Origin: Crambe crambe
Lineage: Eukaryota; Porifera; Demospongiae; Poecilosclerida; Crambeidae
DNA length: 64,000 bases
Direction: 5' to 3'
Assembly (NCBI GenBank): GCA_963924555.1
Contig: OZ004583.1
Location: 4,311,501-4,375,500 of the forward strand
The first letter of the stretch is position 1. Each line of letters begins with the position of its first letter. The position numbers and the translations under genes are program-made. Under the pieces are notes generated by a model. It was not told the origin of the DNA and searched no databases. It worked only from the letters and a program-made list of their open reading frames with translations. This document shows, piece after piece, positions 6,001-61,265 of the stretch.

Positions 6001-7470
6001 TCTCTCATTATTATGAGCCCTCATTTGCTCTAATCTGGCAGCTCTGTGTTCTGCTGACTCTGCTCTCCTTCTGGCTCTCATTTGCTCTGCTCTTGCAGCC
6101 TTATTTTCTGCTGACTCTGTACATTCCCTCCTCTTGGCTCTATCTCTTGGCTAGTCTTGTTTTTCTCTGTTCCTTTGACTCTGTTCTCCTTCTAGCTCTG
6201 TCTCTTTCATTTCTTTCATGAAGTCTCGCTCTTCTTTGCTCGTCAGTTTCTAGAGGGTGTTCTGGGGCCCTCCTTCGCTTCTTTTCTGGTTCTCTGGGTT
6301 CCATAATACTCGCTACAATAGTGTTTCAATTTCAAGTTTAACGAAAATTATTGCATTAAAGTTATTAGACCAACGTTGCTTAGTAGCTATTTCATGCGCA
6401 TGCGTATTTTAATTGACGTACGTGTACATATAAATATCTCAATTTTCCATTTTGACCAATTAGTGTGGGGCTTCGCTCACTCACCAATAACCCAAGTAGA
6501 AAGTTATGTAGGGATGACAAGTCAAAAAAAATCAATGCCAAAACTCAAGGGAAGACAACTTTCATGTAATGTAATACAATAAGGCCACTATTTATAGAAT
6601 CCTAGTTTCCTGTCCAAGAAGACATCCAAAAGTGCTGCGGGCGGGCGGTTATTATAATTATTCTATTATTGCTTCGTTGTTTGTCTCAAGGGTCCTGTCT
6701 TCATCATTCACCACGGGAAGAGCTGCATGTGAAGCCAAATGTGCGCGCTCTATTGCGCGCATGAGCAATGGCAGGCGCTAGGCAGTAATAATATTTTTTG
6801 ATGCGGTGACATTTTCAATACGCGGGCGGTGGACAGGAAATAATATTCTATTAATAGTGGCCTAATCACATGCAATTGATTTGTAATTATCCCTATTATT
6901 CAGCAAGTGAGCTGATTCTCAGATTATGACTCATTGAAATTAGGTCTACATTCCAAAATGTGCCAGTAGCTCCTGCAAGCTAGATTTTTTTCTACAACAT
7001 TTTGTCAAAGTGGATTATATGTAGGTAAGGATTACAGCTTCCTATGTATGCAGCTGTATGGTTGGGAGTTGAATGAATTGAAGCCCTTTGTCTACTTACT
7101 GGCACATTGCCCTATAGTATTAATGAAGCAATTTACTTGCCCATAGCCATGTATTTTTGTGTGCACAGAGTATTGTGGCTGAATGTACTAGCTATTTACA
7201 CTTAGTAATTGTGTGAAATTAGGTTATTATAGAAGTTTACCAAACCTTTCTTCCTTGCCTACAAAAAAAAAAGGACTTTGGAAATGCCCACAAGAAACAC
7301 CTTGGAAAAAATTATGGCCTGGTATTAGGGCCTGGGGTATTGTTCAGAATGACTTCGCCCATGTCAGAGGGCACATGTAGCTAATTATATCACCAGCTAG
7401 TTATCTTTACTTACCATTGACCTTCATCCCTCTCTTTCAACGTATCAACCCACACCAGCGCTGAACGCAT
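20..7470 (-). CDS. IFT122: Intraflagellar transport protein 122 (IFT-A), N-terminal part, cut by window edge
   Basis: WD40/TPR subunit of the IFT-A complex that drives retrograde ciliary transport. Nineteen exons read on the minus strand: 7470-7415 (ATG at 7470, start MRSALVWVD), 5472-5406, 5353-5269, 5185-5027, 4919-4786, 4720-4647, 4083-4008, 3949-3857, 3805-3698, 3634-3558, 3234-3114, 3048-2974, 2917-2805, 2741-2562, 1755-1635, 550-473, 370-293, 231-191, 92-20. They join in frame to 603 codons. Diagnostic stretches of IFT122 appear in order: [83 protein letters not shown]. The two beta-propellers and the start of the TPR region are present; the rest lies left of the window. Intron 1 is long (7414-5473) and holds a transposon-type relic. 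A further possible exon near 4402-4460 is not needed for the frame. Identity is near certain; single junctions are inferred. Confidence 0.96.
601..885. mobile_element. Fold-back MITE with GTAGGGATGAC-type arms
   Basis: Two arms of roughly 115-130 bp are inverted copies: the left starts AAGGGAAAAAGGATTTCG and the right ends with its complement at 885. Both carry the motif GTAGGGATGACCACTGCTC. No coding capacity. It lies between IFT122 exons. The same arm end recurs near 63520-63555, and related GTAGGGATG ends occur at about 6508, 26740, 27473 and 33615, so a family of related non-autonomous elements is likely. Confidence 0.85.
2268..2407. mobile_element. 140-bp palindromic MITE (GTTAGACAC family), copy 1
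   Basis: Terminal inverted repeats start GTTAGACACCTCGACCAACG and end with a near-perfect complement ending GTCTAAC. A second copy lies at 8399-8550 in the opposite orientation. It sits in an IFT122 intron and has no coding potential. Confidence 0.85.
5914..6304 (-). pseudogene. Arg/Ala/Glu-rich repeat protein fragment, transposon type, one frameshift
   Basis: Read on the minus strand from an ATG at 6304, the frame gives [15 protein letters not shown] followed by copies of an RxxRRxESxEqRxxRL repeat. It hits a stop after about 54 codons. One base out of frame it continues with [20 protein letters not shown] and two more repeat units to a stop at 5914. Repeats of this kind are familiar at the N-terminus of large Helitron-like or unclassified proteins in sponges and cnidarians (recollection, not a search). 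A single-base frameshift and location inside IFT122 intron 1 suggest a decaying insertion. Confidence 0.5.
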
Positions 7471-7671
7471 TTTTACGGCAGATGAAGCTGCCTGGAAGTG
7501 GCCCCCAAGCGCTGGTTCTTATTGCCGCCGAAGAAGTTAGTTATATTCATATGGTGTAGTCATAGAAACCAAGAACGGGGAAACCCCACGCCCGCATGCG
7601 CATGCGGTCAGCTTGCAGAGAGGTAAAGGGTCGGTTCAACGTTAATGCGCATGCGCTATGCATGATACGAT
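7471..7671. promoter_or_regulatory. Divergent promoter of IFT122 and LTA4H with NRF1-like palindromes
   Basis: Only 201 bp separate the start codons of IFT122 (minus) and LTA4H (plus). The stretch is GC-richer than its surroundings and holds the perfect palindrome CCGCATGCGCATGCGG at 7592-7607 and GCGCATGCGC at 7647-7656, both close to the vertebrate NRF1 (alpha-Pal) consensus. The same palindrome recurs at 49516-49525 and 53718-53727 in other promoter-like places of the window. Transcription starts are not visible from sequence. Confidence 0.65.
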
Positions 7672-10600
7672 ATGGAAGAAGACCCCAGCACCCATTGCAA
7701 CCATCGAGAAGTTGTAGTGAAGCACTATCATTGGAGTATAGATGTGGATTTTGATGCCAGAATCCTCCATTGTTCGGCCACTCTTACCATTTCAGCCATC
7801 AGTGGTTGTTCTCAACTTGTAAGTACTGAAATGTAGTCACATCCTTTTCAGTCTGTGCACCATGCAGATACAAGGGTAATCTTGTGGCTAAAACCCCTTT
7901 CATTGAAATGAAAGGGTTGAGAACTTGAGCCTTTTGAGTTGATGTTCAAAATACGATATAAGTATGCATGTAGAAGTGTGTGGAGATGGTGCAGGCACCA
8001 TAGATGATAATCTGGTGTAGTCAGCCCCAAGCGCCGAAGGCGTGAGGGTCTGGTGACACATAATACTTGGACTTGTTCATTTAATCATGTGACATATTCT
8101 GGCATTTAGTGTGAAATGATGTCATGTGTCACTGGATGACGTCATTGAAAAGCGTGTGGAATGCACATGCTGTAATGATGGCTGTAACAACACTGAAAGA
8201 TACTGCCAACAGAGCTGTTGTTAGATTGGGGTACCCATTGGGGTTGAAGCGTGAGCAGTTGGATGCTTTTCTATCTGGATTGTGGCACATGAATTATTGG
8301 AAACGTCATCTGCGCACTTCCTGCCCCCGAACAAGTCCAAGTATTACGTGTCACTAGACCCTGTGCTCAGGGCTGGCTATGCCAGATTACAAATATATGT
8401 TAGACACCGAGACCAAGGGATCTACGATATTTAGAAACCTGGGCTGGGTTAGAGGTCAAATAAATATTACCACGCACCTACCACCGATCGTGCTACTAAG
8501 GGCCTGAGGGTTTCTAAATACCGTAGATCCCGTTGGTCGAGGTGTCTAACTTATTTAGACTATAGCAACTGTTGCTAGCGCCGCAAGCAATTCGCAAACA
8601 AATCACTCGTAGAATGGATGAACTTGGAGCTGACTTTCCCCCGTTCTCGTTCTTTTGTAACGAGATAACGAACTGGCTTTCGGATATAGGCCAAAGCGAA
8701 GCTGAGCTAGCACCGGATGTGCGTACTACGAGACCCACCCTTCCAACTAACGAGCTACCAAGCCGTTTTACTTCAGCTAAGAGTGACGATGAAGTTTCTT
8801 CAGCGAGAAAAAAATCGTCTGTGGAATAAAAATGGAATGGTAACCAGCTCTTGATTTTTTTTTCTGACAAAGAATTCTGTGAATTTAAGGCATCCTTGGA
8901 TGCTGAAATGAAACGTATTCAAGGTTTGGGTATTGGTATCCAAAAAAACAAGCTGAAATAATCACACAAAATGAGGAAGAAATATTGTGGGAAAAAAGGC
9001 CTTCTAGGAGCAAAAGTCCTCAGGTATTGCTTGACACCATTATTTTATTTTTGCTCTACGAAGTGGCAAAGAACACCGCCAACTCCGATCAAATCCCTGC
9101 CAGATTGAAGTGATAGAGAGAAGTGGTGAAAGGCCCTATCTAAGATACACCGAAGAGATATCGAAAAATAGGCCAGGCCTAAAAGGGAGGAAAATGCAGC
9201 TGAAAGTTGTCATTCAGTGGAAAATCCAGAGCGGTGCTTTTTGAGATTGTTCAAATTGTACATCAGTCTTTGCCCAGTAGATAAACCACATCATGCTTTT
9301 TATTTCCAGCCATCTAGCATGCCAACACCATCCTGCTGGTATACAAATAAGCCATTGCGACATAACACACTCCATAAAACAGTAGCCAGGCTATGCAATG
9401 AAGCTGGAATTGGAGGGTTCAAGACGAACCATTCCTTACGAGCTACAGCAGCTTCTCGACTATATCAGCACAGTGTTGATGAACAACTAGTTATGGAGAG
9501 AACGGGAAACAGAAGTATTGAAGGTGTAAGGGGTTATAAGAGGACATCCGATACTCAAAGAGAAGCGCTATCAGATATTTTCAATAACAGCAAGAAAGTG
9601 TGCATGGTCGATTCATCTTTGTTAGTACCTGCTGGATCAGTACCTGTGATACCTGCTGAATCATCTTTGTCCGCAGTACCTACCGGATCATCCTCATCTG
9701 TAATGCATAATACTGTCAAGCAGACCCAAAATAGTTTACCAGGGTTCAGCTTTACTGGGTGTTCTTCTATAAACATTAGCATCAATAACTACACTAACTA
9801 ACTAGCTATAGCTACTGCTATAGCTATGACTTCATTATTGTCTTTCTTCATTTTATCCCTAAAACCTGTATAGGAAACTTGTTATCAATAATAGCCGATT
9901 CTATTATGCCCATGAAGGTGGATTCTATATGTAGAGTCCCTCCACAGAGGGACTCTAAGTGATTTAGAATCCTCACACTCCCCATTATAATAGTAATATA
10001 GTAGCTATAGTCTAAGGGTGAATAGAGAGCATTGTGATATTCATTGCCAGGGTTTCATCTAGAAATTTTGATTAGGGGTGGAAGAATATCTGCGTGCTTG
10101 CATGCAGAAAAAATTTTCCTGGCCACACCCACTTTTGTCTAACCACACTCTTTTTGGTTCTGCCTGTAATGCAGACTTGGTGAAGACTCCCTAGATCAGG
10201 CTATGCACATCAGTAAAGGCTCTCGAAGACTCGAGGCACAGTGCTGGAGGCGACTATGTTGGTGGTACGTTTGTCCATATCTGTGCATGCACATGACCTT
10301 TAATGCATGACCTTTAATGACTGCAAGAGACAGCAGGCAAGTTAACAATTATCTGAGAAAGCAGGCAATCATCTGAGAAGTAACATGAAAGTCATAAACA
10401 GCGAGAACAGAGAGTAGAATCTACACAACTTATGATACAATTGTCTGAAAGATAGCAAACAAGCAGCGAGAGCAGAGAGGATACAATGTTTCTGAAAAGG
10501 CAGCAACAAGAAAGCCTTGAATTGCGAGAGCAGAGGCTACAAAGTAAGCCGGTCATTAATTAAACAGTCATTTGAGATAGCAGCAAGAGAGCCACGAAGA

Positions 10601-25241: not shown

Positions 25242-28200
25242 TTATTGTTCTAAGATTAATGATAATGAAATTTTACAATATACTGAGAAGAATTGCTCCC
25301 ACGCTTGAAGTACACTTACAACAGTCAAAGTTGTCATGTGAGGATTATTACTGTAAGAAAAAATTCTGTCACGATCTCTCTCCAAACACAACACTAAATG
25401 TTTTTGTGATTTCCTATGACCAGATGTCAATACTGTTGGAAACGGAAGTTTATCTCGCATCAACGAATAACACCATAACAGGCGACTAATTCGGCCATTA
25501 CCATCTTCAAAGGGATGTAGAGAGCAAATGTTAAAGTGGAGCCAACTTGCAAGCTCATATGGGTCGTGTGGATTGGAGAATTTCTCATTATATTCTTTAA
25601 CTAACTTTGCCATGTTATGAGGAATGCATGTGTAAGAAGGATAGACATGTCCACCACCTGACCTCACGGAGATAGTCCGATAGGAACCAGCATTGATTGA
25701 TAGACCCTGTTCATTTTTTAAACCATGCATCATAATACCATGTGCTTTCTTTATCACATCTTCAGTAAGATCTGGTAAATCATCTCTTCCTTCAGGCTTA
25801 CAAAGGAGTTTGAAGGCTTTAAAATGTTGTTTCACTTGGATGGGGCTGCTTACCTAATGAAATAAATTAGAGGTGTACATAAAGCCATATACTTTTAAAC
25901 AGGTACCGTATAGCTGGAAATATTGACGGGAATTATATTATAAGATTTCCTTATAAAAATACCATTGATGGTACTTAATTTGACGGAATCTGAAATCGCG
26001 CAAAATAAATAATGCGCGTGCATCGTGCATGCGAACTGTGTACAGCTAGCTAGCTAGCCATACAGCAAGTACGAGTTCTCCAGTCGTGTTTGTGTTAGTC
26101 TACGAAAGTGTATGGACTTCAATTCTTGGGAGAAACTAACACTGATAGCAATCCTTATATGCTACAATTGTTGGACACATCCCTCGAAGAATTTCAGCCG
26201 CTTGTTCTCTCTTTCTTTATAGTGATGGATGGCTCTTTAATTTGTTGCGCCATCACAGGTACAAGGTGCTACTCCTCCAGGGCCTATACGTTTTCTTTGA
26301 TTTTCTCTCCAGCAGTGGTGTGCAATAAATGGAACGCAACGTATCGGAAACTTAATTAAACTGTGCAACTTTTTGACAGTTTTATTTTTGGCGATTTGAT
26401 GCTTAAACCGCCAAAGTGTCAAATTAAATCTTTGTCAATATTTCCGGCTATACGGTATAATCGTTAATGAATCTGTATTGCATAGTGAGAAATTTTCAAG
26501 GTCTCAAGATTTGATTGCCAACTGGCCACACCCCCTTGTAGACAAAGAAACTCCATAGCAGTGAAGGATGAGCTATGCACTATATAAACACACTTCACTT
26601 ACACAAATGCGTATGATTTTGTTCCTCAATTTTTTTGCTATCAGTATTCAATTATTAAGTGCATCCATGCAAGCTGCTAGGTTTAATCATGAGATTGAGG
26701 TTGCTCACATTATCAGAGAGTACAATAGTACTCTCTAAGTAGGGATGGCACGGATTGCCCCATTGCACCTATACATTCATTATGCATTTCTCTTCTACTA
26801 GATAGTGTTAGGACTCAAGTATACTGAAGAGCAGAAGATAAAGCAGTGTCATTAACAGCGATTGCTGTTTTCATCTGGTCATTCATCATCATCATCATCA
26901 TCATCATCAAATAACTTATTTCAGAAATGGTTCATTCAAAGCTATAATTCTTATACCACTCTACTCAGAAATGACTGCTATAATCCTTTACCTTTAACTT
27001 GACATGTTCAAAAATAAGACCTGATAGCTTTCAACCTACAATGTGGCAAACATTTCTATATAATATGCCCTGCCCCTGTGCACATGATTCTTGGACCTTG
27101 ACCTCATATCTGACTGGCACTGGTCTGGTTATGAATCAAGCATTGATGTAACTCTGATCAAGCATATAAGGTACAACACCAGTTTGTAATTGACAATCAA
27201 CTGTATAAATACGAGCTACACCAGAATTTTATCCTCCCTTTTGGCTGAAACTGCTGATAAACTGCATAGCTAAAATATATGTCTGGGATGGATAGGAGGA
27301 TCACAGCATCCAGTTGCCTACAATAGTTACAAAGTAATAAGTACCTCTGAGACTATAATTATCCTAGATACATGCACCATAATTATATTCATTATGGTTA
27401 TCTGCATTATATCTAAAAAGGTGATGAACAAGTAAAGGAAAAAAATTAATATTTATTCTAAATAAAAAGGAGAAGTAGGGTTGGCTGTGTGCGGTTCAAG
27501 AAAGTTCAGCAACAAGGGAGTGAACTTCAGTCAGGTAACCCCTTACCCATCACCAACATTACCAAACTATGAGCTAACTATTCACTCCCTTTATACCATC
27601 TTGGCCTATCATGGGAGTGAAGTAGGAATAGTTAGCTCAGTTTGGTGATGGGTAAGGGGTTACTTGACTGAAGTTCACTCTCTTGTTGCTGAACTTTTTT
27701 GAACAGCCATCCCTACTTTTCTTACATAGTGAGGCTAGCAGAACTCCGTTTTCTTCTTTCAACACAATTCAACATACCCAATACACATCATGCATGGTGT
27801 GGAGTACCAGCATTGGTGACGAGCCTTACCTTAACTACACTTCTTGATATTGTTAGGCTACAAGGTGCTTTACAGGAGAAATGTAGGGTGAGACTGATGA
27901 TCCTGATCGATGTGATTAGAGTTTCTTGTGCATGGTGAATTTCTTGATTATTTGTGCAGGTATTTACTTTGAAAGCTGGTCAATGGACTGTCACCTTGAA
28001 ATCCTTGTCTATGGTTTCATCTTAGAAATCAAGTGCTGTGGTATGGTTTGTATTCATTAATAAGACTTTGCACATAATTATAGGAAAAATGAAGATGATT
28101 AAACGACTTCTCTGTAGATGCTCATAATCTACATATTTTGTGCAATTTATCTCTAGTTGCCCTTGTTATACATACCATAGATAATATAGATACTCCGTAT

Positions 28201-34781: not shown

Positions 34782-35106
34782 CTAAGTTCTGCACAGCCCT
34801 GTTTTACAGCGTAGCCAGCTTTCAATATAATCATGCAATAGCATCTAACCACACAATCCAGATCATCAGGTTCGCCCCATGACCTTAATTATGTACATGT
34901 TTAGTTGTTATCACATGCTGAGCTATACAGCACACACTGCCATAACAAGAGTAGCTACGAGTAGCTATGTAAGGGTGCATTCCTCAGATAATAATGTAAA
35001 GTATAGGCTTATGAGCACATTAACCCTAAACCTGATTATTTCATTGCCACCCTGTAAATAAATCTATTTTACTTTATAGCTAATGCTTAAATTATTGTAA
35101 ATTCTA

Positions 35107-36054
35107 GCTGCTCTACCTCCATATTTGGATCACAATGACTACCGATTCAGAGATATACTAGGAGATACCCCTGAAGCAGCACACCAATTTTGTACAAAAA
35201 TTCAAGATAAGTGGCACATGGATTTTTCTAAAGATGCTGAGCTTGCTGAATATATGAAGGAATGGAAAAAATCTAGGGCTATTCATTTAATAATGTTTGG
35301 GCCAGATAAAGTGGATGAATTAAAAACGTATCAGCTGCTATCTGATATTTATGATTCCAAAAAAACATGTGACAGTGGTGAAACACAAGTTGGCAGTAGT
35401 GATGCTGAAGAAGATCGGACTAGTGAATGTCAACTAAAGCAACACTTAAATGCTTTGCTTCTCCTTATTGATAATCCTGATGATTTATCAGAAAAAATAA
35501 TCAAAGAAGCACATTGTCATCTCATGAAAGATCTGTCTAGTGAGAATCGTACTATTAATGCTGGATGTTATAGAGAAGAACCTGTACATGTTAGGAATCA
35601 TAATTTTACTGAATATAAAGATGTTCCTGATTCTATGATGAGGATTGTTGAGCAATAATATTATAATGAAAGATTTGAAAAAGATCATAATCCTATTGAA
35701 CTTGCTAGCTGGCTTTTGATGGAAATGCTACAAATACATCCATTTCGGGATGGAAATGGGCGTTTATCACGTTTACTTTGGTGCTATTCACTAATGAGAG
35801 ATGGACTGCCATTTCCAGTCATTCCTTTCCCAGGAGTAAGCAAAGCTTATAAACAGTATATAAGATGCATTCAGGGGGATCAGGATCGTTGTAATAGATC
35901 AAAAAATAAACACGTAAATTCACTTACTCTCATTAGTGTCACAATGACATGGAAAAAATTTATTACAAATTTGAAATCGAAATGCCAAACAAAGTATGAC
36001 ATGATCATTACTTGGTTGAAGGAAAGTGGTAACATGCTTACAGATCTAGAGTAA
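35107..36054 (+). pseudogene. Fic-domain protein, gene 2, interrupted by one in-frame stop
   Basis: Paralogue of Fic gene 1, divergent from it. The exon opens after acceptor TTCTAG at 35106 (ALPPYLDHNDYRFRDI) and stays in one frame to a stop at 36052-36054, except for a single TAA at 35656-35658. After it the frame continues (YYNERFEKDHNPIELASWL). Active-site motif HPFRDGNGRLSR at 35737-35772 fits HxFx(D/E)GNGRxxR. Around the stop, gene 2 has two codons more than gene 1 (EQ, stop, YYNERF against KEYNEKF), so a small AT-rich insertion may have made the stop. Where gene 1 has SSNFLED, gene 2 has FGPDKVDE, so the inhibitory Ser and Glu pattern is gone. A 5' exon was not found. Alternatives: a young pseudogene, a truncated protein of about 180 residues, or a base error. 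Confidence 0.8.
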
Positions 36055-36283
36055 CTATGATAAGTAACATTGTTTTGCTGTGCTGAAGTAGTAACTATAG
36101 CTTGTTTGTGTTGCATTCCAATTAGTTATGATATTTAAATAAATTATTTTGTTGAGCTCTGGTATTCTCCCTGACATGTGCACTTACATACAAATTAACC
36201 TTTGAATCATGATGGATGTAGATACGAGTGTAATAATATAAATATTCATACAATCAAAGTAAAACAACTATAGTTATTTAGCT

Positions 36284-39200
36284 CTATACATTGAGCCTTT
36301 TCTCCTTGACCCCAGGAGAAGGGTTAGAAACTCCAACAATTGATCCATTTTTCACACTGGGTAAGAATCCGTCAGGTTTTTCTGCTTGTTCTTTAATCCT
36401 AGGAAGCATGTTGGGTTTCCTAGATGCTGCATGTGGTACACTTATAATCAGAAATGCTGATAGCTAAATAGGTGAAGCATTATAGCTAATAGAGGGAAGT
36501 TGTTCCTTCTAGGCTTATGTGAAATGCTAAGAGTATGAATCATACCTCTAAGATTCATTAATTTTTTTGCAGATTTTTTGAGAGGAACAGGATGAGCTGA
36601 TGAGGGCTGGAGAGAGCTTGTTTGTGCACCAGTGAGAATTTTCCCTTTGTTGAAGGAATGTCTGTACTCATTTATTGGACTGGAGTTAGGAGGTGGCGGA
36701 GGGGTAGGGGGAGAAACAAAAGGGTCTTTACTGTGTCCATTAGACCCCGCTAATGAAGTTAAAAGTGAACATAATAATTACGTAGCTGACATTAAAAGTT
36801 TCCTGGGAACAGCTTACAATGACCAGGATTGACTTTGGTGAAGCCACTGGCATGAGCAGAAACTTTAGTGTTAAGATGATGGGCAGATTGGGGCTGGCTA
36901 GATAATCTAGATTTCATCTTCTGATGAAAAGGGCATTTATCCTTTGGCAGACTTGAATTTGGAGGTTTAGGAAGGAGAGGGAGCGATAGTCCAGGAGAAT
37001 TATTTGACTCTAAGTATAAAAATATTGTTATAAGCTCTGGATATAATTCTAGATAACTGGAATGGCTACAAAGAATAAGCTGGGCTGTATTCTGAGTACT
37101 TACTTGACACAACAGGATTTGAGCAGGATTGCACTTTTTTTTTAGTGGCACATAAACCATTACCTCCAATTTTGGGAAATTTTATACATTCTGAATACAT
37201 AATACCAATAAAATCTAATTCATCATAACATCAACTCTTGCCTTTATTTTTTGAGCTGAGCTCCTTCAACATGTTCTCACTACTACCAAGGTTATTCTGT
37301 ACTTGCTTGGGTTTAATTTTAGGATATTCTATTTATTTGATTATTATTATGATTATCATTAAACTTCACTTTAATTCATTACCTCCATCTGAGCTGAACT
37401 CCCTCAGTGTTTTTTCACTACCATTAGTATTGTCTTGAACTTGTTCCAGTCTGATTTGGGACATTTCTGAGCAGAGTGAATGATCATGAACTGGTCAGTT
37501 ACAACATTAACTCTTACTAGATCCAAATTTGCTGCCTGTACTTGACCTGACCTTCAAAGTGGTCCCTGATTATAACAAAATATCGCAGGTATAATAAAAT
37601 ATTGCAGGAAAATTGTGACCATTACCTGATTCAAATTGACTGCCTTCATCAAAATTTGCGTTGTACTTTTTTGTTACACACTCACCACTACCATTATTAT
37701 CTGGATCTAGCGTTGATCCAATTTGAGGCAACTTTGAACCTTCTAATTATGAATAGATGACAACATCAGATGAAGAAATTTGAAGTAATCTTACTGGATA
37801 AAGAGCTGGACTCCTTCAATATTTTCTCACTGGTACTGTCATTATGAACTTGAAACATTTCAGAATATATTATTTATGATATTAATAATACAATATCAGT
37901 CCTTACTTGATTGACTGCTTGCAAATGAATTAGCCTTCACTGTGGCTTTACTATCACCTTTAGGACTTTGTTCTGGTGTAATAGGGGATAATAAAATTCA
38001 ATTTCAAACATCAGTCCTTACTTGGTGCAAATTTACTGCCTGCTTCTTCCACTCTGCTCAAAGTATATCCTAAAATGTAATAAAAACATAACAGGTAATT
38101 AACATTTTGGGACTGTCAATCCTTACTGGATGCTAATTCACTGCCTGAATTTGAGCTGGCCTCCTCTACTCTGTTCAAATTACTACCTGAAAATTCTGAA
38201 TAGTAACAACATGTAACAGTATCTTAGGAACATAAATCCATAGTTACTTGATGCACTGCCTGCTTTTGAATTGGCTTCCTTTATTGTGTTCAAACTACTA
38301 CCTTTATATTCTGAATGGTAATAAAAAGAATGGCAGTAACATTTTAGGAGTGTCAATTTCTTACTTGATGCTATTTTACTGCCTGCATTTGAGCTGGCCT
38401 CCTCAATTCTGTTCAAACTACTACCTGTATAGAAACAATGTAATTATTATTTTAGGAAGATAAATCCTTAGTTACTTGATGCAAGTCCACTGCCTGTTTT
38501 TGAACTGGTACTACGTCTATATTCTGAATAGTAATAAAAATAATAGCAGTAACATTTTTGGAGTGTCAATAATTCTTACTTGATTCTGGTTTACTGCCTG
38601 CATTTAAACTGGCCTCCTCTACTGTGTTCAAACTACAACCTTTGTATTCTGAATAGTAATGATAGGTAACAGTAATAATTATTTTAGGAATATAATCCAT
38701 AGTTACTTGATGGAAGTTGACTGCTTGTTTTTGATCTTGCCTCTACCACTGTGCTCAAACTACTATCTTTGTATTCTGAACAGTAATAAAAGTAAGAATA
38801 TTTAACAGTAATATTTTTAATACTTACTTGATGCTAATTCACTGCTTGCATTAGAGCTGGCCTTCACTACTTTGCTCAAACTACCCCTTGTAAATTCTGA
38901 ATAGCATAACAGTAATAATAACACGTTGTGAGTATCAATTCTTACTTGATGAAAGTTCACTGCTTGGATTTGAGTTGATTTTCTCTACTGTCCTTGAATT
39001 ACTACCTGTATATTCTGAATAGTAGTGAAAGGTAACAGTAACGTTTGAGAATATAAATCCTTATTTACTTGATGCAAATTCACTGCCTGCATTAGAACTG
39101 GCTTCCTCTACTGTGCTCAAACTAACACCTATATAATAATAAAAGCATAAGAGGTAACAATTTCATTTTGGGGCATCAATCGTTAATTCACAGCCTGTTT

Positions 39201-42200
39201 TCGAGCTGGCCTCCTTCACTGTGCTCAAACTACTACCTGTATAACCTGAACAGTAATAGTAACAAAAGCATAAGAAGTAACAGTAACATTTTGTGAGCAT
39301 CATTCCTTACTTGATGCTAATTCGCTGCCTGCATTTGAGCTGGCCTTCACTACTGTACTCAAACTACATTCTGAATAGTAATGACACAGGTAACAGTAAA
39401 ATTTGGATATAAATTCTTAGTTACTCGATGAAAACTCACTGCCTGTTTTTGAGCAGGCCTCCTTCACTGTGTTACCTGTATATCCTGAATCAGTAATAAC
39501 AAGTAACAGTAACATTTTGTGAGCATCATTCCTTACTTGATGCTAATTCACTGCCATTTGAACTGGCCTCCTCCACAGTGCTCAAAGTACAACCTATATA
39601 TCCAGAGTAGTAGGTACATAATAGGAACATCAATCGTTAGTTACTTGATGTTAATTCATTGCCATTTGAGCTGGCCTCCTCCACAGTGCTCAAAGTACAA
39701 CCTATATATCCAGAGTAGTAGTACATAATAGAACATCAATCATTAGTTACTTGATGTTAATTCATTGCCTGGATTTGAGCTGGCCTCCTTCACTGTGATT
39801 AAAATAACACCTGCATAATGTTCAGAATAGATAACAGTAGGAATATCAATCCTTAGTTACTTGATGCAAATTCACTGCCTGCATTTGAACTAGCCTCCTC
39901 CTTTATACTCAAATTAGTATCTGGGATTTGAGGGATATTCCACACATAATTGTTGTCAATTTAGCATTATTAATCTTTACTTAATGAAATTTCACTCTCT
40001 ACTGAGTCCTGCAGTTTCTTAGTTGTACTCACACTACTTCCACTTCCACCTGCAACTAGTTTTAATCCAGTTTGAGACAACTTAGAACATCCTAAATGGA
40101 ATAATGATAAAAAGAAGACTAAGAAGAAAAAGGATTACTCTTACTTGAAAATTCACTGCTAATGTATGAGCTGGTGTCCTCCAATGTACTCTCACTCTCA
40201 CCAATATTAACTTGAACTTGCTTGTTCAGTCCAACTGAATAGTAACAATTGCCATAAGGTAAGGTGGGATATGTACGTAGCTTCAGAATGTAGCTAAAAC
40301 TCCTGCTAGCTATAATAATTACTCCAGTTAGTTATGTAGATGCATAACAGGTTGTAGCCCTCCACAGTTGGAGTTTCCCTGCTTTTATATAATAGATGTT
40401 TTTTTTGTTGTTACCCCTCTCTACCTTATAATACTCCACAGCATGGATTTTTCAGTTACTCTATGTTAACACTCACTTAATGGAAATTTACTGCCTGCAT
40501 CAGAGCTGGACTGGAGCAACTTTCCAGTTACACTCTCACCACTGTAATTATCCTCTGGATCTAAAATGAATGTAGTAATTTGATCAAAGTTAAACTCAAT
40601 TCTTACTAGAAAGAAGTTCACTGCCTGCATTTGAACTGGCCTCCTTCACTGTGCTCTCACTACTACCTGCATCATCTGCAATTTATTGTGATCTAATTGT
40701 GGGCAATTCTGTAATCTGTCGAATCAACTCTTACTTGATGCTAATAAATTGGAGCTTGATTCCTCAAAATTTTCAACACCACTAGTATTATTTGGAACTA
40801 GTATTGAGGCAACACAGGTTAATAATTATAATGCTATTAAATTGGTATTAATCCTCACTCGAAGCATATTCATTGTCAGGATTTAACCAGGGCTTTACCA
40901 ATATGCTCCGAGCCTTACTGGATACTATGGACTCCTGTAACTTTCCAGTTACTTTCTCACCACTATCTGAGTCTAACTTTGATCCATTTTGAAATATTTC
41001 AGAATGTCCTAAGATTAATAATGATAGTAATCTATATTTTGATGATTACATCTATCTTTACTCGATGCAAGTTCGTTGCCTGGATTTGAGCTGGCCTCTT
41101 CCACTGGTCTCAAACTACCACCTGGAAGTCAATATGTAATGATGATACTCTGTCAAATCAACTCTTACTTGATGCAAATGAATCGGCCTCCTCCAATTTT
41201 TCAGTCTCTCTCTCACCACCATCAATATTACTTGGAACTAGCAATCCAATTTTTGGCAGTACAGGATATTCTGATATAGTAAAATCTTTGATGATCAATT
41301 ATTCTTTAGTGGATTACTTCCATTCATGGTTCCAATCTTTAACTAGTATTCATAAAGAATCAAACTCACTTGAAGCAAATTCACTGCCAGAACTTGAGCT
41401 GGTCTTCACTAATGTGCTCTTGTTATCATTTGGTTCTGTTCCAATATGAGATATTTATTAGCACTAGATAAAAGTACAAAGTCATCACTTACTTGATGGA
41501 AGTTTACTTCCTGAAAAATTATCCTTTGGCTCTTGATTAGATCGCACTTCAGAATATCCTGAAATCCCAGAAATTAATATCTGACCAATTATAAAAATCT
41601 CATCTATATTCCTACTTGATGCAAGGTCACTGCCTGCACTTGAGCTGGCCATGCTCCAACTACTACCTGCATCATCTGGTTATTTTTTGGTCCAATTATG
41701 TAGAATCAACTCTCTTACTTGATGTAAATGAATTAGAACTTGTTTCCTCAAAATTCTCAGTTGCACTCTCACCACCATTGATATTTGGAACTACTTTTGA
41801 TCCAATTTTAGGCAACACAGAGTATTCTGAGTAGTAGTAATGTTTTCCATCATACAAATTTCCTAAGATGAAATTTAATAGTTAAATCCTTACTTGAAGA
41901 AAATTCATTGCTAGAACTTGAGCTGGCCTTCAGTTTATTATCTGGAATTTTCAATTTGAGGAATAATAATGATTATAATGTTAACACTTACTCGATGCAA
42001 ATCCACTGCCAGATTTAGAGCTGGATTCCTGTAAATTTTCAGTCAGTCTCTCACCACTGCCAATATCCTTTGGATCTAGCTTTGACTGCAATTCAGAATA
42101 TCCTGAAATTAATAATAATAATATTAAATTTTGATCATTAAAACATCTCATCTATTCTTACTGCCTGCATTTGAGCTGGCCTCCTCCACTGTACTCTCAC

Positions 42201-45200
42201 TACCACCTGTATTATCTGGAATTTGTTCTAGTCCAATTATGAGCATTTCAATAATGATAAAACTGTGCCAAATCAACTCTTACTTGAAGCTAATGAATTG
42301 GAGCTGGATTCCTCAGTTGGTCTCTCACCACCATCAATATTACTTGGAACTAGATTACATCCAATTTTAGGCAATACAGGATATTCTGAGTTATAATAAA
42401 TGATAACAGCAATAAATGACAAAAAAACAAAAAACGAAAATAAAAACAATAACAATACTGTAAATTATCATGTTGGAAATTATATTTCAACAAGGAAATT
42501 TTGATCATAGCATGAAACATTACTCACTTGAAGATAGTTCACTGCCAGAACTTGAGCTGACCTTTGCTACAGCAGTGGTGCTGTTGTTATTATCTGGAAT
42601 TGGTCATGAGGTGAAACTTAGTATATATAAAAATACTTCAACATTTACTCGATGCACATGTGCTAGAATCAGAGCTGGAGTCCTGTAACTTTTCAGTCAC
42701 ACTTTTAGTACGTCCTTGTTTTTGCTTTGATCCAACTTGAGGCACTTCAGAATATCCTGAAATTCCTGAAATCAATACAGTTATACAGTAATTGTTATCT
42801 AATCATTTAAAACATCCTACTTGATGCAAGTTCGATGCCTGAATTTGAGCTGGCCTCCTTCACTGTATTCTCATTACCACCTGTATCATCTGGTCCAATC
42901 ATTGTTGTTAATTGAACTCTGTCAAATTAACTCTTACTTGAATAGGAACTTGATTTATCCGATTTTTTAGATGCATTCTCACCACCATCGATATTACTTT
43001 GAACTAGTTTAGATCCAATGTTAGGCAATACAGGTCCTGTTGATAAAATTACACTAAAATCTGATCTATCACAACTTTAACATACTTGATGAAAATTCAC
43101 TGCCTGTATTTGAGTTGGCTTCTTCCAGTATGCTCTCACTACCACCTGTATTACCTAGAATTATTTCTGATAACAGTGCTCCCAACTTGGAGCACATAAT
43201 GAATATTACAGGGAGTACTCCTTACTCGATGTTACTTCACTGCTAGAGCTGGACTGTAGCTTTTCTGATGCACTTTCAGTACTGCTATCATTTGGGACCA
43301 GCTTTGATCCAATTTGGGGAAGTACAGAATATTCTGGATTAAAATAAGAGTAGCTGAATCATAGCTAGCGATTATTTCTTTCACTCTTACTTGAAGTGAA
43401 TGTATTGCTTGAATTCATGCTGATACTATCCCCACTGCTGTTGACAACTTCTTCTACTTTAATTTGGGAATTTTCTGAGTATTGTATAGAGTTCAGTAAT
43501 GATAAATTCAAAGAAGGGGACTTCTCATTAATTATTTGTGGCAACTTGGGGGGCATTCTGAATAATAATGAGTACTTGAGTATTTATTCCTTACTTGATG
43601 GAAACTCAGTGTCTTCTTTAGAGCCTGTGCCAGCATTATCTTGAGCTTTTCAATGTTCAATTTATAACACAATTTCTATACTAATAGGTAAGCTTAGCTA
43701 CCTGATGCATTTGAACTGGCCTTTTCCAAATCTTCAGCTACATTCTCACTGCCACAATCTAACTTTGATCCAATTTGGGGCAATACAGAGTATTCTATAA
43801 AATTTGAGTGGCATTGAAAAAAATCTGCTTAATCGTAAAGAAATAGTTGTACTTGAAGCAAATTCATTATTTGAGTGGGATTTCAATGTGCTTTCACTGC
43901 TACCAGCATCTTCAGTGTGTTCTGAGTATCAGAAAAAAAGTGTAATAGCTCAACCCTTGCCTGATGATACTCACCTTCTGCATTAGAGCAAGACTCCTCG
44001 GTCATGCTCTTACCGAAAACATTCAATCCAATTTTAGGCAATACAGGATGTTCTAATAAATAGTCTGATCGATCATAGCATACAACTCCTAGCTACTAAC
44101 TTGATGCAAATAATCCACTGCCTGTTGCTTCCAATGGTGTGCCCTCACTATCACCAAAGTTATCTATTCCAGAATTACAGAATGATAAAAATGTGAATAA
44201 CCTCAACATTAATGTTTACTTGATTGAAATACACTTCCTGTGTTTGAATAGGACTCTTCCAAATTCTCAGTCACTCCATTGCTATCACCTGCAAGTATAA
44301 TAGCTACTGAATAAACATCTTCTAGAGGTGGCCATACCAAGTCCTAATTCATAACCCTTACTTGATGTAAACTGTAAATCATCAATTAATAGGAGTAGCT
44401 GTATCTAAATTACCCTTACCTGATAAGAATCCACTGTCAGCATTAGAACTGGCCTCCTCCAATGTCTTTAAGCTATCTTCTGGAACTTTCATTTGGAAGA
44501 AGTCATAGTATTCTGAGTAAGCAACCATCAAAATAATAATTGATTGTTATAAAACCAAGCCTTACCAGCTAAAATATCATCACTGTTTTCCAAGCGTCTG
44601 TGATGGTTTTCAGGAATATATATTGACCCAAAAGTATCATCAAGTTCCACTGATTCAATATCAGGTAAACCTGAAATTTTAACAAGAGCAAAAATTTTTG
44701 GGGAATGAATTGTATAGCAGTGTAAGTAAAACACCACAAAGTTTCGTTATCTGGTAAATTTGTTCACCTGAATCAGATTCGCAGCTGCTCACCTCCAACA
44801 AATCAAGTAAACTCTCATAGCTGAGTGCTGGATGAGGCTTAACTACAAAGACATAATCATTTTATCAGAAATGTACTACTTTCAATGTTATACTGACTAC
44901 ATACGATTACATTTGAACCCAGGCATGAAAAAGTGAGACAAAGTTTGAGACCAATATTAAGCTATTTTAAAGACACTTGCTTTTTGTGGGACATCATTCT
45001 TAATTTTTAGTTGCTAAAATTGCTAAACTTAATAAAAGTGTCATAATTCACTCAGTCGCAGGCTCTTGAAACTGATCAGAGGGTTTTTTTTACCTAAGGA
45101 AACCTCTAAACAATGTGTATATGCATTGATAGTTACACCAATCTATGATGCAACCACTAGCCCCTCTCTCAGTTAGGGTAGCTATTATTACAGTTATACA

Positions 45201-48122
45201 GTGGATACATGCAGATGTCAAATATTCTGTACTGCATGCATCCTGCATGACATTCATATGTCCTGGCATTTATGACTGAGCTAGCAGAGGCCTGAAACTC
45301 TACATCTTTAGCCCCAGCTCGTTTGGTAGATAGGCACATGAATGGCAGAATGCACACGATAAGGAAAATTCAAAGTCTGCATAAATCCAGTGAATCACTC
45401 TGCTGTAACACTTCGGACTAACTTTCCCAGAACATCCTGCTTATTGGACTTGTTGGGATTTCTGGCTTTTCAGGTGGACCAAAAGCACGTAGGAATTGAC
45501 TTGGAGTGATGATATCATCTTGGAATATGCAATATTTTTTGTATTCTGGTTCAGGTGGATCTGGAGACAACATAATAGGGTTTATTCTGACACTGGAGTC
45601 TGACAATAAGATGTACCTTCCTTTATAGGCTCATTTTCCATTTCATCATCACCATCATCACTATGTGAATCAGACTCATAGTAATAAGCTTCATACGTTT
45701 CACACATAGGAGGAGGAGGAGAACCGTAAGTGTCATGTGGAGGAGGAGAATGATATCGATGAGAAGGATAAAAATCACCATGTACTTCTGAAGGCAGCCG
45801 TTCAATTATTGCTACTTGAATAATTTCTAGAAATTATAATGTCAATTATTTCTCTACAATTGGCATTGGCATGGTAATAATACAAATAGTTAAAATAGAT
45901 TTATTGGGATTTTAGCAGGTACTTATAATACCCACTCTAAGAGAGCTTCTATTATGGTCTATCACTCACTCCTCACCATTAAATCTTACAGTCTTCTTTT
46001 TCTTCTTTTTTAGACTGCCACTTTCAGGATAGATTAGTTGATCATAGCAATTACTGGCATGATCATCAGCTGGAACATATTCTTTTGCTGGTTGATTGTA
46101 CCAAACACTGGCATGACCATCAGTTGGAAGACTTTCTTTCAATTGATCACTCTGAACCAACCCAGTCTCAATGGTGGTGGCTTGACTACAGTTCTCTTCG
46201 ATATCCTCAAGCTCAATATCATTGTTGGTTGGGGCATATAAGAAAGTGCTGTCACCACAACAATCTCTGCTGAATCCCCTTTCTACTTCTGCAAAAAACC
46301 CCGTCTGCATGGGGATAATGACAATGTTATATGAGGTGTAGCTACACATAAAATCAATCCCATGCACCTGCCCAAATCTTTTATCATTAGCAAATGATAG
46401 TTTTTGATGCTTCTTGTTCAGATATACACAAAAAGCCACACCCCCATGAGCAGGGGGGCATTTGATTATATCTGAAGTAGATGGAAGTTCTTCGAGGAGT
46501 GAAAATCCATGAATAAGAGACTTCACTGAAGTAACATTTCTCCTCTGTCTAGTATTAGCAGCTTGCTCATTCTTTATACTCAGACGTTCATGCAGAAGCT
46601 TGCGGAGGTTTAGACGATTAATCTCCACTGATACCATCTTTTTCTGCAATTGTTCACTGAGTTCTTTCCCACAAATCCTTGCACTGGAAGGACAGTATGG
46701 AGTGGGAGGATGGCTGATAGCATGATCTTGTTCAAACTGCACTTCAAAAGCAACATTACCCTTTCTTGAAGTGGTAATAGCTAATTCAGGTGTATAATCC
46801 TGATCAGCATTTGATTTTGGTTTGGCATCAGCTAACTCAGGTGTGCTCTCCTGAACAGCATCAGAACATGATCCGGTACCAGTTGATTCAGCGTCAGATC
46901 TTGGCTTGGGATAAGCTGTATTCTCCTGATCAACATCAGATCTTGATTCAATGCCAGCTGATTTAGCCTTGTCATCATCAGATCTTGGTTTGGCATCAGC
47001 TAACTCAGGTGTGTTCTCTTGGTCAGCATCTGATTTAGCCTCATTAGCATCAGATCTTGATTTGGTATCAGCTAACTCAAGTGTGTTCTCTTGGTTAGCA
47101 ACATATTTTGATTTAGTACCAGCTGATTCAGAGGTATTTTCCTCATCAGCATTAGATACTGGTTTGGCAAACTCAGGTGTACTCTCCTGATCAGCATCAG
47201 ATCTTGATTCAGTAGCAGCATCAGATCTTAGTTCGGCAGGTGACTCAGGTGTACTCTCCTGATCAGCATCAGATCTTGATTCAGTAGCAGCATCAGATCT
47301 TAGTTCGGCAGGTGACTCAGGTGTACTCTCCTGATCAGCATCAGGTCTTGGTTTGGTATCAGCTGTATTATCCTGATAAGCATCAGATTTCGGATTGGCA
47401 TCAGCTAACTCAGGTGTGCTATCCTGATCAGCATCAGAACTTGGTGTAGCATCAGGTGTATTGTCCCGATTAGCATTATCAGATCTTGACTTGGTACCAG
47501 CTAACTTAGGCGTATTGTCCTGATTGGCATCATCAGATCTTGACAGGGTTGACTCAGGCGTACTGTCCTGATTAGCATCATCAGATCTTGACCCTGTACC
47601 AGCTGACTCAGGTGTATTGTCCTGATTAGCATCAGATTTTGATCTGGCATCAAGTGTATTGGTATCTGATCTTACTTTGGCATCATTGGCATCAGATCTT
47701 GGATTGGCATCAAATATTGGTTTGGCATCAGATCTTGAATTGGGATCAGATCTTGGTTTGGCATCAGTTTTGGCATCAGATCTTGTTTTGGCATCAGATT
47801 TTGGATTGGTATCAGATTTTGGATTAGCATCAGATCTTGGTTTGGCATCAGATCTTGGTTTGGCATCAGAGCTTGGTTTGGCATCAGAGCTTGGTTTGGC
47901 ATCAGATCTTGATTTGGCATCAGATCTTGGTTTGGCATCAGATTTTGGAACAGCATCAGATCTTGGTTTGGCATCAGATTTTGGAACAGCATTAGATCTT
48001 GGTTTAGCACTAGATCTTGATTTGCCATCGGTTTCATTGTCTTTTTTAGCCTTTGATATTTTAGGTTTGATCCTAAAAATGTTTCTTTTGATCCATTTCA
48101 TTATTCTCTTGCCTCTACCCAT
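36284..48122 (-). CDS. Unrecognised giant repeat protein encoded by a tandem array of symmetric mini-exons
   Basis: ATG at 48122, stop TAG at 36286-36284. First coding exon 48122-45977 (2146 nt), then 45826-45617 (210), 45599-45423 (177), 44842-44768 (75), 44670-44566 (105), about 50 mini-exons down to 37190-37104 (87), then 37009-36818 (192), 36749-36546 (204) and 36456-36284. Every exon I could bound after the first is phase 1 to phase 1, so each can be skipped without a frame change. Mini-exons code Ser/Ala/Glu-rich peptides, class A like LSTVEEASSNAGSEFAS (often exactly 60 nt) and class B like EYPVLPKIG...VPSNIDGGE...EESSSNSLAS. The 3' exons are proline-rich. No signal peptide, membrane segment or known enzyme domain. 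The protein could reach about 2,000-2,500 residues and should be largely disordered. Some units have lost a splice site. Function unknown; I recognise no homologue. Confidence 0.75.
37104..44500 (-). repeat. Exon-intron tandem array (about 50 units, roughly 100-200 bp each)
   Basis: On plus the unit reads (C)TTACTTGATGCAAATTCACT, then GCCTGCATTTGAGCTGGCCT, then CCTCCACTGTGCTCAAACTA and a CTGTAT(A)TTCTGAATAG acceptor: donor, exon and acceptor of a minus-strand exon. In 38125-39980 the spacing is regular (97-128 bp, mean about 115). From 40000 to 44500 units are longer and class A and class B exons alternate. One unit near 39180 lacks the donor half. Divergence between units is substantial, so the array is not a recent expansion throughout; neighbours at 39533 and 39648 are nearly identical and recent. 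Confidence 0.85.
45977..48122 (-). CDS. Large 5' exon of the mini-exon gene: basic start, KPRSDA repeats, unique domain, KTVRF motif
   Basis: First 716 codons. Residues 1-30 are basic (MGRGKRIMKWIKRN). Roughly 30-150 are short repeats (K/S)(P/S)(R/S)SDA. Roughly 150-450 are longer repeats combining SRSDA with DQENTPESA-type words; two units of about 26 residues (TESRSDADQESTPESPAEL) are exact tandem copies. About 465-715 is unique, with a helix-prone segment (ELSEQLQKKMVSVEINRLN) after AFEVQFEQDH. The end is KKKKTVRFN, a good match to the RVxF docking motif of protein phosphatase 1, directly before the donor at 45976. The AFEV...LSEQLQKK order faintly recalls stathmin-like domains, but I would not rely on that. 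A 5' UTR acceptor lies at about 48164 (TTTCAG). Confidence 0.75.
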
Positions 48123-59773: not shown

Positions 59774-60769
59774 TTATTGATTATAAATTCTACTATCGGC
59801 AATCCATCCTTCACAGTCTTGTGGTGTTATTGTTGAGAATGCACTATAAACTATAGTATCAATGTCTTGAATTGCTTGCATTTCATCTTGCATTGCTCGC
59901 ATCATAGCCTTGGCTTTTGAAAATAATTCTTCAATAGGGTTCATATCTGGTGAATATGGGGGGAGCCAGTAAATCAGGACTCCTACCTCCTGCAGAAGCT
60001 GTGTAACTTCAGATACATGATGAATAGTGCAATTATCCATTATGACAATACTTCTAGAGTTATTGCCATTGAAGGGCATGACATTGGGCATCAAGGAGTT
60101 TTCAATAAATTCAATAAACGTTTCACCATCAACACTTCCTCTTACTATTCTACAAGCTAATATTCCTTCCACTGACATGATACAAATTGCTGATATGTGT
60201 TCTCCCCTTACCAAGAGTTGCTGTTTTCTTGCTGGCCTTCCTCTTAAGCTGTATCCCTTGGTTCTAAAAGTGTCCCGGTGATCAGTTCCAGTTTCATCAA
60301 GGAAGAGTAACATGTGTGAACTGAAAAGGGAGATATCTGCAGCAAACTTTTCACGCAGATCATCATCTCTTTGTACAGCATACAACTTGAGTCTTTGTCT
60401 AGTGAAGCCAGCCTTGTTGAGAAAAACACAAATAGCACTCTCTGTGACATCAATACCTAGCTGTAGCTCGAGTTCATTCTTCAGCTCTCGAAGATATAGG
60501 CCTGGTTTATCAATAACCAGGTGAAGAATAAAAAGCTCAGCTGATTTTGTGATTTTCCTGAATGACTTCTCAGAAGGGTAAGCTTTCTTGTTAACACTGC
60601 CAGTAGTTTCAAACAGTCTAACAATACGTCGGACAGTAGATCCATCCAAGCTCAAATTAGCTGCAACTTTCTTGATGGGCAACTGTAAAGCTAATACTTG
60701 CCATACTAACCTCCAACGCAAGTCATTGCTGTATGGACTGCTCCTTGAATTTTCACAAGATGTCGACAT
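59774..60769 (-). CDS. DD34E transposase, Tc1/mariner-IS630 type, intact single exon, 331 aa
   Basis: ATG at 60769 in a good context (GCGGCCATG). N-terminal helix-turn-helix (residues about 17-60: WRLVWQVLALQLPIKKVAAN then STVRRIVRLF) followed by a DDE domain: first Asp in LLFLDETGTD (about 160), second Asp in IVIMDNCTIHH (about 247), Glu in PDMNPIEELFSKAK (about 282), 34 residues between the second Asp and Glu. Length is normal for the superfamily (about 340). No stop or frameshift, so recently active or under selection. The convergent gene at 58697-59667 is probably its element partner. Clear terminal inverted repeats were not found (only a possible CATGCGCA at both outer sides), so a host-owned pair cannot be excluded. 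Confidence 0.9.
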   Translation of the reverse strand: MSTSCENSRSSPYSNDLRWRLVWQVLALQLPIKKVAANLSLDGSTVRRIVRLFETTGSVNKKAYPSEKSFRKITKSAELFILHLVIDKPGLYLRELKNELELQLGIDVTESAICVFLNKAGFTRQRLKLYAVQRDDDLREKFAADISLFSSHMLLFLDETGTDHRDTFRTKGYSLRGRPARKQQLLVRGEHISAICIMSVEGILACRIVRGSVDGETFIEFIENSLMPNVMPFNGNNSRSIVIMDNCTIHHVSEVTQLLQEVGVLIYWLPPYSPDMNPIEELFSKAKAMMRAMQDEMQAIQDIDTIVYSAFSTITPQDCEGWIADSRIYNQ

Positions 60770-60842: not shown

Positions 60843-61265
60843 TCATTGAGATAATTTTGGCAAGGCTACAAAAAAACCGTGTATATATGGTGATCTTAAG
60901 CATTGCATGCAGATCATACCTTTGAGATCAAGCTGCATAGCTAAAGATGGCTTAAAAATAGCACGTGCCATGAATACTAGCGTCTGGTCAGCAAATTTTG
61001 TACTTGTATCTTCCCCACTCAATAGTAATTCAATATCTCGATTGACACCACCAAGATCCACAAATCCCACCAATTTACCATTATAATCAAATACTAGCCC
61101 GCTTTTCATCTTCATCTCATCCATGCTCAAGGTGCAGCAATGTTGAGCACTTGGTATATCACCCTTCATTCTAGCGAACTCCTCAATGAACTCTAGACTA
61201 ACACCACTATTTGAAGTTGATATAATTGGATAAGGTTTGCTCACTTGGTAAGTGTATAATGCCAC
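60843..61265 (-). pseudogene. P-element/THAP9-like transposase fragment
   Basis: The minus strand reads ARMKGDIPSAQHCCTLSMDE, then MKMKSGLVFDYNGKLVGFVD and LGGVNRDIELLLSGEDTSTK, then LVFMARAIFKPSLAMQL. The order LSxDEMkikxglVyDxxxgxliGFvdLG ... LVFMvRgIF is characteristic of P-like transposases and the animal proteins derived from them. Only this segment is present and the end is out of frame or spliced. Confidence 0.6.

Follow-up and report, generated by a model that had tools for sequence, protein, structure and literature searches.

The window analysed here, a stretch of sponge DNA 64,000 nucleotides long, carries on its minus strand a predicted gene of 60 exons, the start and stop codons of which mark the exact limits of 48122-36284, the same coordinates as in the original prediction. 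The gene opens with a first exon of 2,146 nt, which encodes the whole head of the protein, continues with 58 internal exons and closes with a terminal exon; in what follows the head exon is unnumbered and the internal exons are numbered 1 to 58. The predicted protein has 2,324 residues (or 2,314 should the terminal exon begin at the acceptor that matches, by homology, that of a paralog described below), and its tail makes up 1,609 of them. Elsewhere in the window there are a DUF3504 or phage-integrase-like frame at 9217-9801 (+), a second Fic-domain reading frame at 25242-25835 (-; PF02661, E 4.4e-19), a 331-aa DDE_3 transposase frame free of internal stops at 59774-60769 (-; E 1.1e-27) and a fragment of a TNP-like RNase H domain at 60843-61265 (-; PF21787, E 4.4e-11). 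A PAZ_2 match on a neighbouring frame (E 0.082) was treated as chance.

All of the exons described here are on the minus strand. The first coding exon (45977..48122) has a 718-aa open frame which encodes, in order, a basic N-terminus (MGRGKRIMKWIKRN) common to the paralog at C5:1802282, a long region of in-frame repeats of the RSDAKP/NQDNTPE type, a segment resembling stathmin, and an end rich in lysine. Exon 1 (45617..45826, 210 nt) is of phase 1-1, as is exon 2 (45423..45560, 138 nt) if its weak GTTAGT donor is used; alternatively, exon 2 may end at a TAG, which would give a possible short isoform of about 830 aa. After the longest intron of the gene (580 bp, 45422-44843) come the upstream tail exons 3-32 (40477..44842), all of phase 1-1, with an A-B-C-D repeat roughly from 43333 on, in which the A units are of the KYSVLPKIGSKLVPSNIDGGE type and the B units of the SGSESTVEEASSNAGSEFAS type. 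Exons 33-34 (39981..40234) are transitional units, and exons 35-50 (38022..39920) are sixteen consecutive B-type mini-exons of 48-69 nt, with introns of 49-63 nt except for one of 182 nt. The downstream exons 51-57 (36818..37972) are again 1-1, and exon 57 (37009-36818, 192 nt) contains HLNTKVSAHASGFTK, which is conserved in the paralog. Finally there are the proline-rich exon 58 (36546..36749, 204 nt, phase 1-1) and the terminal exon (36284..36456), which contains the conserved ASRKPNMLPRIKEQAEKP and begins at 36456, or at 36426 by homology to the paralog.

It is striking that all 58 internal exons have a length that is a multiple of three, in 25 distinct lengths, and that all 59 junctions of the final model are in phase 1. 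The introns (43-580 nt, median 57) are random modulo three, with remainders 2/0/1 in 21, 19 and 19 cases (n=59). The median tail exon is 66 nt, and most of the coding region lies in such very small symmetric exons. Because all junctions share phase 1, the segment between any two introns can be copied or lost without a break in frame. The original prediction of symmetric 1-1 exons is thus borne out for the whole array. Its count of about 50 mini-exons was too low, and of the eight exon lengths that it gave, those of 210, 75, 105, 60, 87, 192 and 204 nt reappear in the model, but that of 177 nt is modelled as 138 nt; the longer version would need an acceptor 39 nt upstream, leaving an intron of 17 nt.

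Every junction is a prediction from a semi-Markov gene finder, which combines splice-site matrices and codon scores, leaves the phase free, and was trained on the locus itself. The settings used were strict (minimum exon 30 nt, a higher intron penalty and a codon term), and the raw output had phase 1 at 58/60 junctions before manual editing. In these edits, exons 1 and 2 took the place of the three small exons with which the finder had begun, and the donor of exon 57 was shifted by 6 nt to a better GTAAGC. A looser first version, which admitted exons as short as 9 nt and penalised introns little, broke the gene into too many pieces (101 exons, with phase 1 at 61/100 junctions) and was set aside. 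The tail exons have no in-frame stop in 1380 codons, compared with 83/1436 and 189/1380 in the other two frames, a difference due in part to the finder itself, which does not allow in-frame stops.

The region from 60 bp ahead of exon 3 to 36240 was scored against 60 dinucleotide-preserving shuffles and against its own reverse strand. The trained free-phase model gave a score of 1530, compared to 72±21 for the shuffles (maximum 142, n=60) and at most 33 for the reverse strand, and placed 56/56 junctions in phase 1; in the shuffles, the junctions were divided among phases 1, 0 and 2 as 358, 355 and 313. Starting the chain in phase 0 again gave phase 1 at 56/56 junctions, and starting it in phase 2 gave 54/55. 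A generic splice matrix with no codon term scored 221 for the real sequence and 20±10 for the shuffles (maximum 43, n=60), with phase 1 at 39/41 junctions. Since a copied exon takes over the phase of its source, the 58 symmetric exons do not count as 58 separate events. The exon layout is well above chance, and as judged from the sequence the protein-coding interpretation of the array is well supported.

A rival reading is that the gene generates isoforms, its symmetric exons being skipped or included in many combinations as in the schistosome micro-exon genes. The frame would be kept on skipping any one of the 58 internal exons (58/58), and an in-frame alternative AG lies within 15 nt of the acceptor in 23/54 tail exons, a count made with no chance control. 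We consider this reading unlikely, and with it the earlier proposal of very many isoforms, for which symmetry is permissive. Intron definition is suggested by the short introns (about 57 nt), and retention would add an in-frame stop at 53/59 introns, only 2/59 introns being both a multiple of three in length and free of stops. The symmetry goes back to a few founder exons, and calls for no explanation by splicing. According to the available part of PMC4432959, exon skipping is rare in the sponge Amphimedon, with 513 events making up 1.8% of alternative splicing events and affecting 1.0% of transcripts, while intron retention accounts for 45.0% of events; Amphimedon is another sponge, and the figures may not apply to the present host. 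Taken together, the rarity of skipping in what is available of that source and the stops introduced by retention make constitutive inclusion the default reading. The same text gives 103 exons for the most exon-rich Amphimedon gene model, so that 60 exons is a high number, yet not unprecedented.

The head exon offers the only hint of a known domain. A helix at 46536..46667 (-; KELSEQLQKKMVSVEINRLNLRKLLHERLSIKNEQAAN...) was judged weakly stathmin-like from Pfam PF00836, a profile search of the PDB, and structure prediction. The helix pieces of the window gene and its paralog match Pfam Stathmin PF00836 alone, with E of about 0.016 and 0.039, both of them aligning at profile positions 92-135 (about 43 residues), and their scores of 14.4-15.7 bits do not reach the curated cut-off of 24.7. 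A profile made from the two paralogs was compared to 177,635 distinct PDB sequences and gave just two matches at E up to 10, both of them to stathmin chains (the stathmin-like domain R1 and Stathmin-4, E 0.013 and 0.25); the helix piece of the window gene by itself matched none at E up to 1. With the full 718-aa frame no Pfam family was matched at thresholds of E 1 or 0.1, nor was any with the 337-aa frame of the paralog at E up to 1, and a genome-wide PF00836 scan listed neither paralog and no locus over the cut-off, with a weak match on C18 (E 0.495). A structure model from the two sequences is mostly of low confidence (mean pLDDT 41.5). For a piece of 277 aa the model has a helix at residues 40-102, which is confident over about 41-80 (pLDDT 71-91), and nothing else in it is confident. 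The segment is therefore a probable stathmin-like helix that falls short of PF00836 membership. It resembles the stathmin family in that a helical segment aligns in both paralogs and that the PDB matches are stathmin chains, and differs from it in the sub-cut-off score and in the match being limited to one helix-length segment.

Directly ahead of the helix is a GNVAFEV segment (46740..46760, -), identical in both paralogs, which may resemble the N-terminal hairpin motif of stathmin-like domains. The first exon ends with KTVRF (45981..45995, -), a K-x-V-x-F motif to which the paralog has KKVHF at the matching place. We take it to fit the docking motif for protein phosphatase 1 (PP1), and it could dock PP1, although the protein has 2 such matches where 1.0 would be expected in shuffles. 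Read by eye, the N-terminus MGRGKRIMKWIKRN is basic rather than an obvious signal peptide, and the domain hint is to a cytosolic tubulin-binding family, so that the suggestion of a matrix-like protein is not upheld. The protein is probably cytoplasmic. N-myristoylation was considered from the MG start and is not claimed.

A search of the genome (143.1 Mb, 119 contigs) with the end of the head found one other locus, C5:1802750-1803142 (E 4.4e-8). It lies in the paralogous gene (C5:1802282 to about 1810857), 2.5 Mb from the window gene. The two genes have in common the N-terminus, the GNVAFEV segment, the helix, an exon end of the form K-V-x-F-N-G, and the C-terminal exons; their C-termini match by BLASTP at E 1e-20, and the terminal exon of the paralog ends in a stop. 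They differ in that the head of the paralog consists of three exons split by two phase-0 introns, that its tail is short, and that it has a Ser/Glu repeat (IPEEVESSSSLEIELKS) inside one exon of 495 nt, not in separate exons. In a gene-finder run limited to the region, 11/12 predicted junctions of the tail were in phase 1. The tail has about ten predicted exons or fewer before the C-terminal one, worded in this way because two of them (9 and 10, close to a poly-C tract) are uncertain and two runs of the finder disagree on the first exon after the head; exon 11 was counted as part of the terminal exon, and a last exon at 1811561 was dropped. A finder retrained on the paralog ran into unrelated downstream repeats with mixed phases, and the region-limited run was kept. 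The short tail of the paralog indicates that the long array is specific to the window gene.

It is worth adding that C5:1812000-1822000, downstream of the paralog, is occupied by a long stretch of purine-rich repeats that give Lys/Glu/Arg-rich words (ETGESKSGCHGKI type) in several frames and are probably non-coding. Outside this genome no relative was found at E up to 0.1, in a protein collection that is possibly poor in animals, and another protein search returned solely the paralog's own frame and one match to a SRPATAM-type repeat (P0003). A literature search on this layout, on sponge stathmins and on parallels turned up no account of the gene among the papers listed; in the text available from PMC3789837 stathmin is just a comparison, and the exon array is absent from the accessible portion of PMC8786786.

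The paralog also bears on whether the locus might hold a pair of genes, the first covering the head and stopping at the TAG of exon 2, the second made of mini-exons and beginning after the 580-bp gap at 45422-44843. The donor of exon 2 (GTTAGT) is weak and is followed by an in-frame TAG, and the gap would be the longest intron of the gene. On the other hand, frame and phase run on across it, the finder predicts a GTTAGT donor for a further exon of the array as well (ending at 44101), and in the paralog the head is followed by mostly phase-1 exons up to a homologous C-terminus. A division into two genes is accordingly quite improbable, and the single-gene model is kept here.

The array has the features of tandem duplication of symmetric exons, namely consecutive exons of the same phase and of lengths divisible by three together with homologous copies, and the product is repetitive and of low complexity as originally predicted. 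Among the upstream exons, identity is highest at offset 4 (0.58), followed by offsets 2, 6 and 8 (0.54-0.55), compared with 0.42-0.47 at the odd offsets 1, 3, 5, 7 and 9; at offsets 10-12 it is level (0.50) and the even/odd contrast is gone. The resemblance at even offsets fits an old four-exon unit, A-B-C-D. The upstream introns have identities of 0.46-0.52 at all offsets, with no even/odd pattern. Further downstream, in exons 33-51, neighbours average 0.67 identity for exons and 0.59 for introns, and one pair of adjacent introns is 94% identical, which indicates a later phase in which single exons were copied with their introns. Tandem Repeats Finder detects these exon-plus-intron units at 108-127 bp, and exons 35-50 look to be the youngest part of the array. 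An exon and its best partner may be up to 0.95 identical, while the introns are mostly no longer alike. The duplication of exons together with introns, as had been proposed, is thus confirmed, the copying of intron sequence being clear only in the young downstream part.

A second copy of part of the locus allows selection on the frame to be judged against a near-neutral control from the same genome. Window positions 35075-39691 have a partial copy about 100 kb away at C5:4246186-4250715, 88-91% identical in four blocks, which has no counterpart to the 5' part of the array and lies directly beside a leucyl-tRNA-synthetase-like sequence (PF13603, E 1e-20). Of its 22 comparable exons six are frame-shifted, and 2 more are mostly gone through one 162-bp deletion. 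Eleven indels fall inside exons, one of them an alignment-edge effect, and 4 of the eleven have a length divisible by three; 2 more cross exon boundaries. Substitutions are about as frequent in exons (94/1721, 5.5%) as elsewhere (92/1483, 6.2%). The copy therefore looks like a relic that is decaying near-neutrally. The units of the window array have a pooled pS of 0.25-0.46, compared with 0.066 for the relic, so that by unit divergence the window array is much older; despite this, it has no frame breaks. The frame shifts in the relic and the unbroken state of the older array argue that the frame is under selection in the window copy.

Constraint on the residues themselves appears weak. The pooled dN/dS between units is 0.47 for A, 0.67 for B, 0.79 for C, 0.90 for D and 0.77 for the 3' B array. 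The groups were chosen by eye, with three A-like exons (8, 10 and 30) and one B-like exon (24) left aside, and the alignments behind the pooled values are short and have sequences in common. Between the window and the relic it is 0.79. Thus the ratio is below one, but in most classes it is not far below.

Both copies of the array have a Fic-type gene adjoining them, which was duplicated together with the array (window 35125-35658 (+) and C5:4246202-4247185). The distant copy has an open frame of 327 aa (PF02661, E 8.6e-18) and the window copy one of 177 aa. On its upstream side the relic is apparently joined, at about L008:5710, to the leucyl-tRNA-synthetase-like sequence at C5:4251300-4254400 (L008 about 6300-9400, -), in which the editing domain is matched at L008:7271-7591 (E 1e-20) and the remainder was judged by eye.

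That the array is a non-coding, satellite-like tandem repeat merely resembling exons, as units of 108-127 bp visible to a tandem-repeat program and the weak constraint on residues might suggest, is very improbable in view of the 25 exon lengths all divisible by three beside introns of random length, the free-phase scores far above the shuffles, the frame shifts that occur in the relic and are absent from the window copy, and the conservation of the end exons in the paralog.

We conclude, with reasonable confidence, that the locus is one sponge gene for a protein of about 2,300 residues, mostly disordered as judged by composition and of a cytoskeletal type, the tail of which grew by four-exon blocks and then by single exons. 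The protein would consist of the basic N-terminus, low-complexity repeats, the stathmin-like helix, and a long tail rich in Ser, Glu and Asn. The sequence shows that the units were copied at two scales, as A-B-C-D blocks upstream and as serial B-type exons with their introns downstream, with both ends of the gene staying recognisable in the short-tailed paralog. All units would normally be spliced in by intron definition over the introns of about 57 nt. The head may bind tubulin or a similar partner, and the tail may act as a long, flexible and multivalent linker presenting repeated short motifs of the VLPKIGSK type, the evolvable trait being tail length rather than the exact residues.

In relation to this proposal, we note that the A units repeat a VLPKIGSK-type motif, and that MLPRI/VLPKI occurs in the terminal exon of each of the two paralogs. 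The motif [VLIM]LP[KQRN][IV] occurs 8 times in the protein, compared with 0.02 in the shuffled protein, an excess that is not an independent test because the copies are related by duplication. SxIP-like motifs, of the kind that bind EB1, also occur 8 times (shuffled, 3.4±1.8); their serine is not conserved among the A units, and an EB1-binding role is not claimed. A match of DUF5773 to the tail (E 0.077) was treated as chance.

A bolder and rather doubtful version of the proposal is that a stathmin relative of the sponge lineage became a giant multivalent scaffold for tubulin or microtubules. Its valency (the number of VLPKIGSK-type motifs and Ser/Glu spacers) would be set by the copy number of the symmetric exon-plus-intron units, making array length tunable and possibly variable in populations, and the paralog would have reached a similar Ser/Glu repeat within one exon. 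If so, the two genes would offer a side-by-side natural comparison of two routes to a Ser/Glu repeat. If the stathmin-like head is confirmed, the family would be an early-branching animal member of a tubulin-regulating family. We know of no stathmin with an exon-array tail of 1,600 residues.

More generally, the locus bears on the extent to which exon duplication can serve the evolution of proteins, as opposed to the making of isoforms, in an animal with splicing dominated by intron retention. One genome here holds three states of one family: the gene with the long array, its paralog with a short tail, and the partial copy of the array that is in decay. Together they can show how a disordered tail expands by means of symmetric exons.

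The original statement that no described family has this layout was too strong. The schistosome micro-exon genes, as described in the accessible part of PMC4350168, similarly have a coding region made mostly of very small symmetric exons that can be freely skipped. Their products, according to the same part of that source, are secreted or gland-associated and are varied by splicing, while the window protein has no obvious signal peptide by eye. In the window gene, moreover, the tail exons have a median of 66 nt, the 58 internal exons are visibly tandem copies and follow a stathmin-like head, and the likeness is one of exon layout. Elastin and the PEVK region of titin are further repetitive proteins that have grown by duplication of symmetric exons of the same phase. 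Collagen-type genes (PMC4838654, in the text available) likewise encode a repetitive, extended protein that has grown in this way. The window gene differs from the elastin, titin and collagen types in its composition (Ser 21.7% and Glu 8.9% in the tail), its small introns, its intracellular stathmin-like head, and its duplication at two scales. The layout thus belongs to an already known route to repetitive proteins, and it is the three-state family within one genome that is the most useful novelty.
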